This document shows positions 10,414 through 19,235 of a stretch of 64,000 nt of DNA, in pieces. The stretch lies in contig CABZSS010000002.1 of NCBI GenBank assembly GCA_902528375.1, positions 1 to 64,000 on the forward strand. The letters are read 5' to 3'. The position numbers were made by a program, and so were the translations under genes. The notes beneath the pieces are model-generated. The model saw nothing but the letters and a program-made list of their open reading frames with translations, was not told the DNA's origin and did not search any database. How positions within the stretch are numbered: position 1 is the first letter of the stretch; each line of letters opens with the position of its first letter. This DNA comes from an uncultured Pelagibacteraceae bacterium. GTDB taxonomy: Bacteria > Pseudomonadota > Alphaproteobacteria > Pelagibacterales > Pelagibacteraceae.

Positions 10414-11745
10414 TTATTTGCCAATACAGAAATCGTTGAAAATACTACCTAATATAGCCTCTACATCGACTTTTCCGACAATTTTACCTAAACTGACTTG
10501 TGCCAGCCTAAGATCTTCTGCCCCTTTGTCGAAATCTAAAGACTCAGTTTTGTCTTTAAAGTTTTGTAAGTTTTTTAAGCACTCTTTTAAATTATTTTTA
10601 TGTCTCTCTCTAGTTACAAAAACATCATCACTAAATTTCATATCAGTAATTAAATTTTTTTTAATACGATCTAATAATTCATCAATGTTTTTTTCTTTAA
10701 GAAAAGACACAGAAATTGGATCATATTTATTAAGTCTATCTTTCACATCAAATTTATTAAGGTCAGATTTGTTAATTACTAAGATAGTGTTCTTATTAAA
10801 TAGATCATTCAAAAAACCATAGAAATCAACATTTTTTGGCTCTATAACAACTATTCTAAGATCAGCTTCCTCCGCTTTTTCAAAGGCAAGCTTAATGCCT
10901 TCTTTTTCAATTACATCTTTTGAGTCTCTTATACCTGCAGTGTCTGAAATTATAACTGGATAACCGTAAAAATTTAAATTTGTTTGCAATACATCTCTAG
11001 TAGTACCTGCAACATCAGATACTATTGCAACATTTCTTTTACTTAAATAATTCATCAATGTTGATTTACCGGAGTTGGGGGGTCCAACTATAGCGATTTT
11101 ATAACCTGTTCTTATTCTTTCCCCAACTTCATAACTCAATAATATTTTTTTAATTTCATTCTCAATAATAGATACATCTTTTTTAACATCATCAAGAACA
11201 TTGGAGGGTAAATCTTCATCCGGGAAATCTATCTTTGCCTCAATTTTTGATAAAACTTTGATTAAATTCTCTCTGAGCTCATTAAATTTTAAAAATGATT
11301 TACCTTTTATAATATTTTGGGCTTGTTCCATTTGAATTTCAGTTTCTGCTGCTATTAAATCTCCTATGGCTTCAGCTTGAAGAAGATTTATTTTCCCATT
11401 TAAAAAAGCAAGCTTTGTAAATTCTCCTGGTTCCGCTAATCTACATTTTTTTGTGCTTAAAAGTGTTTCTTGAAGTTCTTTGACTACTGCTTTGCTTCCA
11501 TGAACATGTAATTCTGCCATATCCTCACCTGTATAACTTTTTGGGCCAGGGAACCACAAAACTATGCCTTGATCTATTGGTCTATTGTTGTTGATATTGT
11601 TTAATTCTAGAAGAGTTGCCTCTCTAGGCGTTGGCATTGCCTTGTTTGTTAATGCTTTAATAAGGAAACTTGTATCAGGGCCAGAAATTCTAATTATAGC
11701 AACTCCGGAAGCCCCTATTCCTGTGGATAGGGCACAAATTGTCAT
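10414..11745 (-). CDS. mnmE: tRNA modification GTPase MnmE (TrmE)
   Basis: MnmE is the potassium-stimulated GTPase partner of MnmG. I start it at the ATG at 11745 (MTICALSTGIGASGVAI), the conserved beginning; the ORF-track version adds 30 unrelated residues. This gives 443 aa. The folate-binding N-domain is followed by the G-domain P-loop GPPNSGKSTLMN, DTAGIR and NKSD, and the protein ends in FCIGK with the essential Cys. The 49-bp gap to the divergent sulfotransferase gene is the likely promoter. Confidence 0.96.
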   Translation of the reverse strand: MTICALSTGIGASGVAIIRISGPDTSFLIKALTNKAMPTPREATLLELNNINNNRPIDQGIVLWFPGPKSYTGEDMAELHVHGSKAVVKELQETLLSTKKCRLAEPGEFTKLAFLNGKINLLQAEAIGDLIAAETEIQMEQAQNIIKGKSFLKFNELRENLIKVLSKIEAKIDFPDEDLPSNVLDDVKKDVSIIENEIKKILLSYEVGERIRTGYKIAIVGPPNSGKSTLMNYLSKRNVAIVSDVAGTTRDVLQTNLNFYGYPVIISDTAGIRDSKDVIEKEGIKLAFEKAEEADLRIVVIEPKNVDFYGFLNDLFNKNTILVINKSDLNKFDVKDRLNKYDPISVSFLKEKNIDELLDRIKKNLITDMKFSDDVFVTRERHKNNLKECLKNLQNFKDKTESLDFDKGAEDLRLAQVSLGKIVGKVDVEAILGSIFNDFCIGK

Positions 11746-11794
11746 AAATATATTATATATTGAATTTAATATAAGGATATCATTAAAATATATT

Positions 11795-12628
11795 ATGATC
11801 ATTTGGTTAGCGTCATATCCGAAAAGTGGAAACACTTGGTTACGTATGTTTTTAAAAAGTTATTTTCTTAAATCAGATGAAAAACTGAGCCTTGAAAGCT
11901 CAATTCTAGACAACTTTAAAGCTCAAGGATTTCCTGATCAAGTAATATTAGATCATCTTAAAGTAGATTATTATAAGTTTGAAGAGATAGTAAAAAATTG
12001 GGAAGCTTTGCAAAACTATATAAATTTAAATAACAAAACAAACTTTGTTAAAACACATAATGCAATGTGTACTGTGGGCTCTTATAAATTTACATCATTT
12101 AAAAATACTATTGGAGCAATTTACCTAGTTAGAGATCCAAGAGATGTTTTAGTATCTTATTCTCATCACTTAGGCTCTGACTACGAGAAAACTTTTGTTC
12201 ATTTATCCTCATCTTATAGTTATGAATATCCATCCTCAGGTGGCAAAAGTTACGAAAAAACTCTCATGGGCACATGGTCAGAACATTATAATTCCTGGAA
12301 AAATTATAATTCTTGCAAGGTTCTAATTCTTAAATATGAAGATATGATCTTAAATGAACTCGATACTTTTACAAAAGTAATAAATTATATAAAGGAAATT
12401 GATGGAACTGAGTTTAATATGGATAAACTAAAAAAAGCTCTAAAACTAACTCGGTTCAATGAGTTACAAAAAATGGAAAAAACTGAAGGATTTAAAGAAA
12501 AAGGTAAGGGTGCTCTTTTTTTTAGAAATGGAAAAATTGGTACATGGAAAGATGAAGTTCCAGTAAATATTATAAAAAAAATTGAAAAACTTTTTCAAAA
12601 AGAAATGATAGAACTAGGCTATTTATAA
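11795..12628 (+). CDS. Sulfotransferase-domain protein
   Basis: This 277-aa protein begins at the ATG at 11795; the ORF-track start lies inside mnmE and adds 70 spurious residues. The PAPS 5'-phosphosulfate loop YPKSGNTWLR (8-17) and 3'-phosphate motif VRDPRDVLVSYSHH (~112-125) are clear, and FRNGKIGTWKDE near the C-terminus matches the cytosolic sulfotransferase ending. It should move sulfate from PAPS onto a hydroxyl or amine of an unidentified acceptor. Its 3' end overlaps convergently by 10 bp with a GT41 glycosyltransferase gene, so the two may act on the same surface glycan or protein; that link is inference. Confidence 0.88.
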   Translation: MIIWLASYPKSGNTWLRMFLKSYFLKSDEKLSLESSILDNFKAQGFPDQVILDHLKVDYYKFEEIVKNWEALQNYINLNNKTNFVKTHNAMCTVGSYKFTSFKNTIGAIYLVRDPRDVLVSYSHHLGSDYEKTFVHLSSSYSYEYPSSGGKSYEKTLMGTWSEHYNSWKNYNSCKVLILKYEDMILNELDTFTKVINYIKEIDGTEFNMDKLKKALKLTRFNELQKMEKTEGFKEKGKGALFFRNGKIGTWKDEVPVNIIKKIEKLFQKEMIELGYL

Positions 12629-14319
12629 TTTTTATTAATTTCTATTATCATTTGATCAAGGGACCGACAAAAATCATTAGTAAACTGTTTAGTATCAAAT
12701 AAAGGTGTTTGATAAATTCGATTAAAAAGATCTTTTCTAATGGTATTTAATACACTTATACTTGACGCATAATAGGATGCTTTTTCTATATAATCTTCGT
12801 CAGTAATTGCAATAAAATTACTTAAATTTGCATTTTTTAAAATGCTTTCACCACATCTTGAATTAAAATTATATCCTTTTTTTGTTAGCACAGGAACGTT
12901 TTTCCACAAAGCTTCAAATGTTGTGGTAACTCCATTAAATGGAAATGTGTCTAAACATAGGTCTATCTTGTTGTAAGTATTTAAATGGGACAAAAAATCA
13001 TTTCTTTTAGTTTTTTTTAATATTTCAAGTGAGTTTGATAGCCCCTCTTTTTCAAATCTTTTTTTAATTACATCTTCACAAATATATAAAGATGATTTGA
13101 GGATTATTTTTGAGTTTTTAACTTTTTTTAATATCTTTATCCAAACATCAAGGACTTCATCATTTATTTTCATAAAATTGTTTAAAGACCCAAAGGTAAA
13201 ATAATTATTCCTATTAAACGGTAATTCGTTAAAAAGACGTTCATTTTCAAAACCACAATGCGAATTCCAAATTTTAGGAAGTTTGCAAATTTTTGGCCCA
13301 TATTCTGTTTCTTCTTCTTTTACAGTATTTATGTCAGCTAAAATAAAATCTATTTCGTTAAGACCCGATGAATTATTAAACCCTAGCCATGATATCTGTA
13401 GAGGGCAAATTCTTGTATTGAAAATAGATATTCTGTTTGAGGACCATAAGCCGGCGAGATCAAACAAAATATCAATGTTTGAGTTTTGTATTATATTTAC
13501 AGTGTCTTGATCTGATTTATTTCCAAGATCAATCCAATCGTCAAAAAGATCTTTAAAAATCTGCGTTGTTTCATCTTGTTCCTCAACGCGCAAAAGGGAT
13601 AATCCGTATGATTTAAATTTTGTTTGTTTTAAATCTTTTATCAAATTTTTTACGAAATAAGATATTGAATGAGATTTACAAAAATCAGGAGACAAAAATC
13701 CTATATTAATATTTTTCTTTTTTGTATCAATTTTGGATAATTTTTTGGCATCGAAAGAACTGAAAACTTTTGAAAATTTTTTTTGGAAATCACCAAAATC
13801 TTTTTGTCGCCAACTACTCAAGTACATTTGAGAAGTAATATAAACTGTTCCAAAAAGCTTATTTAATTTTTTGAATTTTAAAAGTTCTTCTAATTTTGAA
13901 ATTCTCTCTTTATGTTTTAAAAGATATTTATATAAGTCAATACCATGCGCTAAATACCTTTCATTATTTGAGAACTTTTTACTAGCGTCGGAGTACATTT
14001 TTTCAGATACAATTAAATTGTTTACTTTATCAGACTCTTTCCGACCCATTTCAGCACAAAGCTTAATGTGATTACATAAGGCATCTAATGAAATTTCGCC
14101 AAAATTATCTTTATTAAATGCTGCTTCAAAGTCTTTCAAAGCATAGTCAACATCTCTATCAGTTTTACCTTTCTGGGATGCTCTACAAATACCTAGTAAA
14201 TTTAAAATGGCGGGGGACCTGTCTTTTTCTGTGGTAGATGACTCTAATTTAAGAATGATTTCACTATATCTTTTTTCATAAAAAAGTTTTTTATATTTTG
14301 ACAAATTTGCGTCATTCAT
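12619..14319 (-). CDS. SPINDLY/OGT-like GT41 glycosyltransferase
   Basis: I start this 566-aa protein at the ATG at 14319; the track uses a TTG two codons earlier. The N-terminal ~180 residues are helical and TPR-like. The C-terminal half has the GT41 pattern: NIGFLSPDFCKSHSISYF, ILFDLAGLWSSNRISIF, LQISWLGFNNSSGLNEIDF, FGSLNNFMKIND and LDTFPFNGVTTTFEALW. GT41 enzymes transfer GlcNAc or another sugar from a nucleotide sugar to Ser/Thr of proteins; donor and acceptor are unknown here. The usual DLxGHT is DLAGLW, so the GHT motif is altered. It stands alone between the sulfotransferase and rho genes. Confidence 0.85.
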   Translation of the reverse strand: MNDANLSKYKKLFYEKRYSEIILKLESSTTEKDRSPAILNLLGICRASQKGKTDRDVDYALKDFEAAFNKDNFGEISLDALCNHIKLCAEMGRKESDKVNNLIVSEKMYSDASKKFSNNERYLAHGIDLYKYLLKHKERISKLEELLKFKKLNKLFGTVYITSQMYLSSWRQKDFGDFQKKFSKVFSSFDAKKLSKIDTKKKNINIGFLSPDFCKSHSISYFVKNLIKDLKQTKFKSYGLSLLRVEEQDETTQIFKDLFDDWIDLGNKSDQDTVNIIQNSNIDILFDLAGLWSSNRISIFNTRICPLQISWLGFNNSSGLNEIDFILADINTVKEEETEYGPKICKLPKIWNSHCGFENERLFNELPFNRNNYFTFGSLNNFMKINDEVLDVWIKILKKVKNSKIILKSSLYICEDVIKKRFEKEGLSNSLEILKKTKRNDFLSHLNTYNKIDLCLDTFPFNGVTTTFEALWKNVPVLTKKGYNFNSRCGESILKNANLSNFIAITDEDYIEKASYYASSISVLNTIRKDLFNRIYQTPLFDTKQFTNDFCRSLDQMIIEINKNYK

Positions 14320-14374
14320 AAACAAATATTATCAAATAAAGGGTTTATTTAAATAAATTAATAAGTCCTATTTC

Positions 14375-16139: not shown

Positions 16140-17137
16140 TTTCTTATGCTCTTGTTAATTAAGTGCACCAATAATTTTATATGATCCTCGTTATCATTTA
16201 AGCAAGGAATTGTGTCAAATCTTTCCCCACCAGACTCTAAAAAGCTTTCTTTTCCCTGAATAGAAATTTCCTCAAGGGTTTCAACGCAATCAGAGGAGAA
16301 ACCAGGAGAAATTACTAAGATATTTTTTTTTCCCTCTTTGGGTAAACTTTCCAAAGTTTTATCTGTATAGGGCTGAAGCCATTCTTGTGGACCAAATCTT
16401 GATTGAAAAGTTGTCAAAACGGGTATGTCTTTATTAAACTTTTCTTTAATCAATCTAGTGGTTTTGTGACAATAGCAATGATATGGATCACCTTTGTCAA
16501 AATATTTTTTTGGTATGCCGTGATAAGATGCTAATATTAAATCAGGTTTCCAATTAATGCTGCTCAGTTTGTTATTTATAGAATTCACAATTGCTTGAAT
16601 ATAAAGTGGTTCAGATTCGTAGTGAGGAATAATTTGAAGACTGGGCTGCCATCTCATTTTCATTAGCGTCCTGTACACTTCATCACAAACCGTAGCTGTT
16701 GTTGCTGCTGCATACTGTGGATACAGAGGAAGTATTATAATGTTTTCACATCCACTTTCTTGTAAATTAAGCATTTTACTCTTTATGCTTGGATTTCCAT
16801 ATCTCATTGCATAATCAACAATCAAGTTTTCATTAGATATAATAGATTTCACTTTTTCAGCTTGCTTAATAGTATAATAACGTAAAGGTGATATATTTTC
16901 TTCTTTCATCCATATTTCTTTATACGCTTTAGCTGTTTTAGAGGGTCTAAAAGTAAGAATAAATAAGTTTAAAATAATTTTCCATAAAAAAGGATTTACT
17001 TCTATAACCCGTCTGTCTGATAAAAATTCATTTAAATATTTTCTTATATCCCACCATCCTGTAGAATCTGGTGTCCCAAGATTGATTAATAAAACACCAG
17101 TCTTTCCAAAGTTTACTTGAGGATGATCACTTTCCAT
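16136..17137 (-). CDS. hemH: Ferrochelatase
   Basis: This 333-aa enzyme inserts Fe2+ into protoporphyrin IX. The N-terminus GVLLINLGTPDS is diagnostic. The catalytic His lies in SYHGIPKKYF, and GDPYHCYCHKTTRLI and SPGFSSDCVETLEEI follow the family pattern, including the Cys residues that bind a [2Fe-2S] cluster in some members. It overlaps hemE by 11 bp and hemJ by 4 bp, so hemE-hemH-hemJ reads as one transcript running away from the proposed origin. Confidence 0.96.
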   Translation of the reverse strand: MESDHPQVNFGKTGVLLINLGTPDSTGWWDIRKYLNEFLSDRRVIEVNPFLWKIILNLFILTFRPSKTAKAYKEIWMKEENISPLRYYTIKQAEKVKSIISNENLIVDYAMRYGNPSIKSKMLNLQESGCENIIILPLYPQYAAATTATVCDEVYRTLMKMRWQPSLQIIPHYESEPLYIQAIVNSINNKLSSINWKPDLILASYHGIPKKYFDKGDPYHCYCHKTTRLIKEKFNKDIPVLTTFQSRFGPQEWLQPYTDKTLESLPKEGKKNILVISPGFSSDCVETLEEISIQGKESFLESGGERFDTIPCLNDNEDHIKLLVHLINKSIRK

Positions 17138-18134
17138 TAAAACTCCTAACTTCTTCTACTAAATATCTAACCATATCCGGGTTTGTTTCCGGTAAAACTC
17201 CGTGTCCTAAATTGAATATATATCTTTTTTTATCGAAAGTTTTTAAATATTTTGTCACTTCATTTCTTAAAATTTCTTTATTTTGAAGTAAAATTTTTGG
17301 ATCAAAACCTCCTTGGACAGGAATATCAATAGTATCTCTAATGATTGAAGGATCAACATTATAATCGATACTAATTATGTCTGGGTTAACATTATCTACA
17401 AATTTTTTGTAATTATTGATGTTTCGTGGAAAACAAATTGAGATTGTTTTTTTTTGTCTTATAAAATCAACTAAACTTTTGTTGGGCTTATAGACGAAAT
17501 ACTCTAGGTCTTCTTCTGGAAGAAGTCCGGCCCAACTATCAAAGATCTGAATTATAGATGCGCCACTTTTAATTTGAGCTTCAATGTGTATTTTTAAGAA
17601 TTCGTCTAACTTCATTAAAATATTATTAATATATTTATCTTTTGGAAAGACATTAAAATTTCCTTCTTTCGGGGACTTTCTGTTAAGCATGTATAGTAAA
17701 AGGGTCCACGGAGCACCAATAAAACCTATAGTATCTTTATTGTTTATGGATAATTTTTTTTTTGTTTCTTTAACTGTTTCATAAACTGGATTTAGTTTTT
17801 TAAGAAAACCTTCCTTTTTAACAGTATTTAATATATTTAAATCAAGCTTATTTAAATCAGGTCCAAAATTTTTTTTAAAATTTACTTGTTGACCGAGTGC
17901 GTATGGAACTAGCAGAATGTCAGAAAAAATTATAGCAGCATCAAAATCAAACCTAGTAATTGGTTGTATTGTTATTTCAGATGATAATTTAGTATTTAAA
18001 CATAGTTTAATAAAATCTTGATTCTTTTCTCTTATGGATCTGAATTCTGGCAAATATCTACCAGCTTGTCTCATTAACCATATAGGAGTTCCAGAGAATT
18101 TATTATTTATGTAATCTTGTATAAGAGTATTCAT
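17127..18134 (-). CDS. hemE: Uroporphyrinogen decarboxylase
   Basis: This 335-aa enzyme removes four carboxyl groups from uroporphyrinogen III to give coproporphyrinogen III. MRQAGRYLPE (21-30), the family fingerprint with catalytic Arg residues, is intact, as are FDSWAG and NLGHGVLPETN. It is the first gene left of the hemE/ppsR gap, the position used as the origin marker in several alphaproteobacteria. Confidence 0.97.
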   Translation of the reverse strand: MNTLIQDYINNKFSGTPIWLMRQAGRYLPEFRSIREKNQDFIKLCLNTKLSSEITIQPITRFDFDAAIIFSDILLVPYALGQQVNFKKNFGPDLNKLDLNILNTVKKEGFLKKLNPVYETVKETKKKLSINNKDTIGFIGAPWTLLLYMLNRKSPKEGNFNVFPKDKYINNILMKLDEFLKIHIEAQIKSGASIIQIFDSWAGLLPEEDLEYFVYKPNKSLVDFIRQKKTISICFPRNINNYKKFVDNVNPDIISIDYNVDPSIIRDTIDIPVQGGFDPKILLQNKEILRNEVTKYLKTFDKKRYIFNLGHGVLPETNPDMVRYLVEEVRSFNGK

Positions 18135-18413
18135 ATAATTAAATATTATCTATATTGTTTGTAGTATGTACTGTTAATAATGGTAGTTAATGTTTTTTAA
18201 CAAGTTTATAACAGTTTTTTCACATAAGATTTATAAAATTTACCTTTGAATTCTTTGAGTTTTAATCAATTATCATTTTTTTATCTAAAAAGTATAATAT
18301 TTATCAACATGGTTAAAAATGTATATAAATGTGCACTTATACATTAAAATCTTTGAATAGAATTTTTATTTATTTTATGAAGCAACTTATACACACAGAT
18401 ATACTTTTTATAC
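18135..18413. other. oriC: Probable chromosomal replication origin (oriC) in the hemE-ppsR gap
   Basis: This 279-bp region is the longest non-coding stretch in the window and is very AT-rich. It holds a perfect DnaA box TTATACACA (18387-18395), one-mismatch boxes TTATCAACA (18301-18309) and TTATATACA on the minus strand (18320-18328), and weaker two-mismatch copies at 18337-18345 and 18408-18416. Genes run leftward on its left and rightward on its right. The hemE/RP001 (ppsR) gap is the experimentally known origin locus in Caulobacter and the proposed one in Rickettsia. parS and parAB lie about 10 kb away. Confidence 0.85.
18387..18395 (+). promoter_or_regulatory. Perfect DnaA box
   Basis: TTATACACA matches the TTATNCACA consensus at every position. 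It lies 19 bp before the ppsR start codon, so DnaA binding here could also affect ppsR transcription. Confidence 0.8.
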
Positions 18414-19235
18414 ATGATTAATACATATGATATATATTTAATATCCGACTCAACAGGAGAAACATTGGAAAGAATATTTCTTGCAATTAAAGCTCAATTC
18501 AAAAACTTTAAGTATAAAACACACTTTTATTCTTTTACACGAACAGAAAATCAAATTTCTAAAATTCTTGAAGTCTCACAAAGACAACACAATGTTATAG
18601 TATTATACACAATTGTTGACAATAAATTAGCTAGACATTTATCCAATGAGTGTAGTTCCAAAAATATTCCATGCTTTGGCATTTTAGGGGATTTGATTAT
18701 TAGTTTTTCAAAACTTTTGGATCAAAAAGCTCTCAATGTTCCTAGTAGACAACACATAATGGATGATGAGTATTATAAAAAAATCGAAGCCATACAATTT
18801 ACAATGAATCACGATGATGGTAATTCAGTAGAAGACATTGATAAATCTGATATCATCATTCTGGGTGTAAGCAGAACAAGTAAAACGCCAACTTCGATTT
18901 ATTTAGCAAATAAAGGAATGAAGATATCAAATATACCATTGGTAAATGAAAACTCTGTTCCTGATATATTAAAAAAAAATCCTCAAAAAAAATGTATAGT
19001 TGGTTTGACCGCAGAACCTAATAGGTTGGTAGATTTACGTAAAAATAGGATGCAATCAATTAAAGATAATGAAAGCACAGAGTATACAAATTTAGATAAT
19101 GTGCAAAAAGAAACGGAAGACGCACGAAAACTCTTCCAGAAATATAAATGGCCAAGTATTGATGTAACAAGGAAATCTGTAGAAGAAACAGCTGCGTCAA
19201 TTCTTAAGATACATGATATTTTTAATCAAAAATGA
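18414..19235 (+). CDS. ppsR: Pyruvate,phosphate dikinase / PEP synthase regulatory protein (DUF299)
   Basis: This 273-aa bifunctional Ser/Thr kinase-pyrophosphorylase phosphorylates and dephosphorylates PPDK or PEP synthase with ADP and Pi. SDSTGETLERI near the N-terminus and the P-loop-like GVSRTSKTPTSIYLA (~150-165) are the family hallmarks. It is the RP001 homologue that flanks alphaproteobacterial origins and starts the plus-strand operon ppsR-maf-aroE-coaE-dnaQ. It overlaps maf by 4 bp. Confidence 0.94.
   Translation: MINTYDIYLISDSTGETLERIFLAIKAQFKNFKYKTHFYSFTRTENQISKILEVSQRQHNVIVLYTIVDNKLARHLSNECSSKNIPCFGILGDLIISFSKLLDQKALNVPSRQHIMDDEYYKKIEAIQFTMNHDDGNSVEDIDKSDIIILGVSRTSKTPTSIYLANKGMKISNIPLVNENSVPDILKKNPQKKCIVGLTAEPNRLVDLRKNRMQSIKDNESTEYTNLDNVQKETEDARKLFQKYKWPSIDVTRKSVEETAASILKIHDIFNQK

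Follow-up and report, generated by a model that had tools for sequence, protein, structure and literature searches.

The hemE–ppsR intergenic region

The DNA analysed here (the window) is a stretch of 64,000 nucleotides from an uncultured Pelagibacteraceae bacterium. Between the divergently oriented genes hemE and ppsR it contains 279 non-coding bp, whose existence, claimed in the original prediction, is confirmed by gene calls and by the matches of the two flanking products to PF01208 and PF03618. Its features are as follows.

18135–18413, no strand: whole element, candidate oriC, 279 bp from the hemE start to the ppsR start
17127–18134, minus strand: hemE, uroporphyrinogen decarboxylase, flanking gene (PF01208, E = 7e-82)
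18414–19235, plus strand: ppsR (RP001, COG1806), flanking gene (PF03618, E = 4e-89)
18100–18155, no strand: probable unwinding element, the least stable DNA of the window, starting inside the 5' end of hemE; an A+T-rich stretch is found there class-wide
18156–18167, plus strand: degenerate DnaA-trio array TGT-TTG-TAG-TAT with two canonical NAN trios (18162–18167) and a 4-bp spacer to the box
18172–18180, minus strand: inverted DnaA box TTATTAACA, adjoining the trios and followed by conserved GGTAGTTA (class-wide form GGGGATTA)
18194–18224, plus strand: three weak boxes, TTTTTAACA, TTTATAACA and TTTTTCACA, in tandem at 11-bp steps, ending at 18202, 18213 and 18224
18301–18309, plus strand: DnaA box TTATCAACA, left half of a central inverted pair
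18320–18328, minus strand: DnaA-like box TTATATACA, which completes this inverted pair on the right
18337–18345, plus strand: weak box TTATACATT, recognised by its sequence
18387–18395, plus strand: canonical DnaA box TTATACACA, a perfect match
18408–18416, plus strand: box TTATACATG, which runs into the ppsR start codon

Ferrochelatase lies past hemE and maf past ppsR. The predicted turn of gene strand from leftward to rightward holds locally, and the gap has the divergent hemE/COG1806 placement that characterizes Cori-type origins. It also shows the above-average A+T content and unstable DNA of such origins: A+T amounts to 81.7% in the gap compared with 70.2% in the window, and when the 279-bp stretches of the 64 kb are ranked by nearest-neighbour stability, the least stable one begins at 18100 and overlaps with the gap. 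The extreme A+T content noted originally is confirmed. Beside rho, at 11585–14325 and 4–7 kb from the element, the window encodes a sulfotransferase (PF00685) and a glycosyltransferase of family 41 (PF13844), which may form a variable insertion concerned with the cell surface.

DnaA boxes of the gap

The perfect DnaA box of the original prediction is present (TTATACACA at 18387), and instead of the two one-mismatch boxes claimed there are four relative to TTATNCACA, at 18172 (minus), 18216 (plus), 18301 (plus) and 18320 (minus). The gap had been described as poor in DnaA boxes because a strict TTATCCACA-type consensus was used; by the form prevailing in the clade, TTATN(A/C)ACA (TTATNMACA), it contains about seven to nine candidates. 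Strict counting of TTATNCACA, which yields one box in the gap, was rejected as a misleading test, the total in the whole window (two found, 3.5 expected) being at chance level. When TTATNMACA with at most one mismatch was used, the gap contained seven boxes, the maximum for any 279-bp stretch of the window. In G012, a complete genome from the same genus, two TTATNCACA fall within 280 bp of each other nowhere but in the equivalent gap, and the same holds for three TTATNMACA. The genome-wide uniqueness of the box cluster that marks Cori-type origins is therefore seen with the relaxed consensus, both in the G012 genome and in the window.

Motif discovery with no preset consensus returned a TTATNAACA-type motif, the leading words of which include TTATACATG, TTATTCACA, TTATTAACA, TTATCAACA and TTATAAACA; TTATACATG is the most over-represented 9-mer among the aligned gaps. 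TTATNMACA was counted 85 times across 35 dereplicated gaps, compared with 7.2 ± 2.8 times in dinucleotide shuffles (12-fold), and same-strand box pairs exactly 11 bp apart occur 17 times compared with 0.7 times in shuffles. Judged from these sequences, the DnaA boxes of the clade appear to be relaxed to TTATN(A/C)ACA, having drifted towards A and T. A second perfect TTATACACA lies inside ppsR (18603–18611); among the few relatives matched, the 9-mers at this codon pair differ, and it was set aside as probably a chance product of codon choice.

A probable unwinding module on the hemE side

The inverted box at 18172 is preceded by a three-base periodicity. In 44 anchored gaps, T occupies positions −16, −13, −10 and −7 upstream of this box in 95, 84, 80 and 84% of cases, and each periodic T is usually followed by A, so that the repeats on this strand read 5'-TAG/TAT-3' and point at the inverted box. 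Strict NAN trios number two in the window and at least three in 22 of the 35 dereplicated gaps.

The basal unwinding system described for Bacillus subtilis and many other bacteria (PMC8287927) shares with this arrangement an inverted box, a 4-bp spacer, 3-bp repeats and A+T-rich DNA, and in both the repeats have the same polarity, 5'-TAG-3' when read in the direction of the box and 3'-GAT-5' in the opposite direction. The published rule asks for at least three consecutive 3'-NAN-5' trios with a DnaA box no more than 16 bp away, the average spacer being 4 bp, and deviant trios lacking the central A are foreseen (PMC8287927). In the window the box TTATTAACA at 18172 stands 4 bp from the trios; unlike in the basal unwinding system, however, the central A is kept in only two trios in this species, one short of the rule. 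The element therefore works at most like a basal unwinding system and is no strict member of that class.

Many other Alphaproteobacteria display, at the same place, the succession of A+T-rich DNA, a GTAGTTGTAGT-like stretch and CCTGTGGATAACGGGGATTA or a variant of it. A two-block module model trained on non-SAR11 Alphaproteobacteria alone, when run over both strands of each gap, gave a best match that coincides exactly with the SAR11 site in 26 of 35 gaps, the one in the window among them. Derived from G+C-rich Alphaproteobacteria, the model is informative only when the scan is confined to gaps; run over the entire window or a whole genome, it failed to distinguish the gap from other sequence. 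These comparisons indicate that the hemE side carries what appears to be a class-wide unwinding module, composed of A+T-rich DNA, trios and an inverted DnaA box, in a form that is degenerate in this species.

Conservation and two natural rearrangements

The gap was compared among Pelagibacteraceae relatives with both genes in reach, one genus (g5, see below) excepted. The divergent hemE–gap–ppsR arrangement is kept in every one of these relatives, with 104 distinct gaps of 261–288 bp, and position, length and sequence are conserved among them. Short blocks, spaced at 11 and 3 bp, make up the conserved sequence, and the intervening DNA diverges freely. Among other Alphaproteobacteria, all 30 loci examined have the same divergent arrangement, with gaps of 284–1037 bp. 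Those relatives that bear names were deposited as single-cell genomes of Pelagibacteraceae. Two single-cell records (AAA795-M22 and AAA795-F16; L116 and L146) carry the title Candidatus Pelagibacter ubique, although the identity of their ppsR to that of the window is 86% and 74%.

The element is present in a single copy. When 30 SAR11 gaps, excluding close relatives of the window and of G012, were combined into a profile, this profile recovered the gap in the window with an E value of 2.3e-21, the next match being antisense inside the gap itself (0.037); in the complete G012 genome the equivalent gap was recovered with an E value of 1.1e-19 and the next match had an E value of 2.

Two natural rearrangements separate the element from its neighbours. 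In a sister family of the same order (L186–L196, three genera), ppsR is missing from all 11 genomes, and in each of them hemE faces maf across a gap of 271–280 bp. In genus g5, both complete genomes have rho in place of hemE opposite ppsR (2/2; loci L313, L314 and L234), and in one of its genomes (G148) the hemE match lies ~577 kb from ppsR. The rho–ppsR gap of this genus carries TTATAAACA boxes at −226, −183 and −14 from ppsR, and the profile aligns over two such gaps from columns 8–271 and 13–270 (E values of 0.005 and 0.013), which leaves out very little of the element. The moved hemE has no TTATNMACA box upstream of it. The element survives both the loss of ppsR and the move of hemE and is therefore kept for itself, not as the promoter of either gene.

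Strand asymmetry and the dnaA locus in complete relatives

The window's own genome consists of 29 contigs, and skew was taken from complete relatives. In G012 (1.343 Mb) the gap lies at about 1,262,080. The cumulative skew minima are at 1,290,841 (GC) and 1,230,855 (AT), both maxima lying near 0.62 Mb (0.616), and the GC-skew minimum is spread over a plateau some 90 kb wide. A symmetric origin fits best at 1,288,000 (5% range 1,263,000–1,303,000); the gap lies ~1 kb outside this range and attains 95% of the symmetric-origin maximum. The skew optimum is thus 26 kb from the gap in a lineage whose skew is noisy. Mean GC skew across the gap changes from about +0.06 to −0.09 in the relative G327 and from +0.03 to −0.03 in G246; these values were averaged from listed tiles and denote a coarse sign change. 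Skew at fourfold-degenerate sites gave no clear pattern.

The skew switch that is typical of Cori-type origins is accordingly found in these three relatives, and in G012 both GC skew and gene-strand bias turn within about 26 kb of the gap. Skew supports the region, not the base. An array of DnaA boxes at dnaA was named in the original prediction as evidence that would refute it. In G012, dnaA is located 62 kb from the gap, and no such array was detected at dnaA in this genome or in the rpsT–dnaA interval of the window's genome.

Host clade and replication proteins

Of the SAR11 16S rRNA probes, four match G012 exactly and one more matches it with a single mismatch; the 5S rRNA gene of this genome lies ~48 kb from the 16S gene. 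An identity with HIMB59 or AEGEAN-169, considered on account of the small A+T-rich genomes and the genus structure, was ruled out by the probe matches and the split 5S gene, and by the same evidence from this congeneric genome the assignment of the window to a SAR11-type genome stands. A 5S gene apart from 16S–23S has been reported for SAR11 and not for HIMB59 (PMC3815206).

The DnaA protein of the window's genome has intact AAA+ and DNA-binding domains, and its best match among solved structures is full-length DnaA (8btg). Pelagibacter is reported to be devoid of ctrA (PMC2877005). The strict CtrA site TTAA-N7-TTAA, another mark of Cori-type origins, does not occur in the window's gap, and CtrA sites form no conserved pattern among the gaps. 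The CtrA-less gap represents a variant and not an exclusion, because hemE-side origins without CtrA sites, such as that of Ehrlichia ruminantium, have been accepted (PMC1914354). IHF sites likewise form no conserved pattern: the consensus WATCAN5WTR has one match in the gap, at 18271, none in 28 of the 35 dereplicated gaps, and 55 in the window.

Alternative explanations

An improbable account of the gap is that it serves as a mere divergent promoter or 5' untranslated region for hemE and ppsR, perhaps regulated by DnaA, with replication starting elsewhere. A gap between divergent genes must hold both promoters, and the box TTATACATG overlaps the ppsR start; however, the gap outlives ppsR in all 11 genomes that lost it and hemE in both genomes in which it moved, its length is nearly fixed, the 3- and 11-bp arrays are no promoter features, and skew and strand bias switch at the gap. 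Still less probable is a true origin at a nearby site such as the tsaD/hemC region, ~29 kb away in G012. There, a small group of DnaA-like sites (1,290,809–1,291,072, contig C1), apparently at tsaD/hemC, sits on the GC-skew minimum, with three position-matrix sites near 1,290,809. These sites are nevertheless in or beside coding sequence (gene names were read from the sequence), TTATNMACA occurs there at most twice compared with three times in the G012 gap, the sole tight cluster of the window is the gap, and the minimum is itself part of the broad plateau.

The conservation of a non-coding stretch within a streamlined genome could also betray a structured RNA or a small gene. We consider this explanation extremely unlikely: Rfam gave no match up to E = 1 in 17900–18700, and the conserved blocks are short, spaced at 11 and 3 bp and separated by freely diverging DNA.

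A highly probable compact origin at the hemE/COG1806 locus

The conserved position, length and sequence of the gap, the survival of the element after loss or move of its flanks, the skew switch in relatives and the class-wide structure all uphold the predicted origin at the hemE/RP001 gap. We assign a probability of roughly 0.94 to the gap 18135–18413 being the oriC of this SAR11 (Pelagibacteraceae) bacterium, a compact alphaproteobacterial origin of the hemE/COG1806 type. Most likely it is a CtrA-free oriC of this type that is opened by DnaA on the hemE side. DnaA binding, hemE-side unwinding and bidirectional initiation at the gap are what we infer from its architecture. DnaA would bind the inverted box at 18172 and the adjacent 11-bp array of weak boxes (18194–18224), with help from the inverted pair in the centre (18301/18320) and from the boxes nearer to ppsR (18387 and 18408). 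A DnaA filament may then run leftwards from the 18172 box onto the 3-bp repeats (18156–18167) and open the A+T-rich DNA at 18100–18155, where the helicase would be loaded and from where two forks would depart in opposite directions. Published read coverage of SAR11 has a V shape with a single origin and a single terminus (PMC9589681).

A more tentative proposal, to which we give somewhat less than even odds, is that SAR11 possesses its own DnaA-box code (TTATN(A/C)ACA, low-affinity-like and arranged in an 11-bp array) together with an origin of ~270 bp that is near-minimal and CtrA-free, strong boxes having given way to weak ones acting cooperatively and to degenerate trios. If true, initiation would follow a streamlined logic in a bacterium that ranks among the most abundant of the ocean. 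The gap adds a compact origin to the known hemE/COG1806 type; what might turn out to be new is the shift in the box code.

We found no description of a SAR11 origin sequence in the open-access literature. An origin located at the level of the base would supply the zero point for estimates of replication rate from ocean metagenomes. A published SAR11 study was obliged to use an empirical terminus as its anchor (PMC9589681), and in GRiD the fragments that bear dnaA are assigned to the origin (PMC7852909), whereas dnaA lies ~62 kb from the gap in the complete relative. The origin sequence also predicts the bases that a SAR11 shuttle plasmid would need. With each of its two neighbours naturally removed in one lineage or another, it offers a compact origin in which the drift of DnaA boxes and unwinding repeats under extreme A+T pressure can be compared.

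Comparison with known origins

The gap shares its flanking genes, an A+T-rich stretch and DnaA boxes with Cori of Caulobacter crescentus and the hemE/COG1806 origins of Rickettsia (PMC1914354). Unlike these, it contains no strict CtrA site and its boxes are shifted to TTATN(A/C)ACA; in Cori, CtrA sites and DnaA boxes number five each, alongside a single IHF site (PMC1914354). The predicted origin of Wolbachia (hemE/COG1253; PMC1914354) resembles that of SAR11 in staying beside hemE after the other neighbour was rearranged, but SAR11 displays both changes, the loss of ppsR in the sister family and the move of hemE in one genus. At 279 bp, the gap is shorter than those of all 30 other Alphaproteobacteria examined. 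The longest of these, the 1037-bp hemE–ppsR gap at locus L210, contains many DnaA boxes and a TATTAGTAGTATTAG array adjoining hemE.
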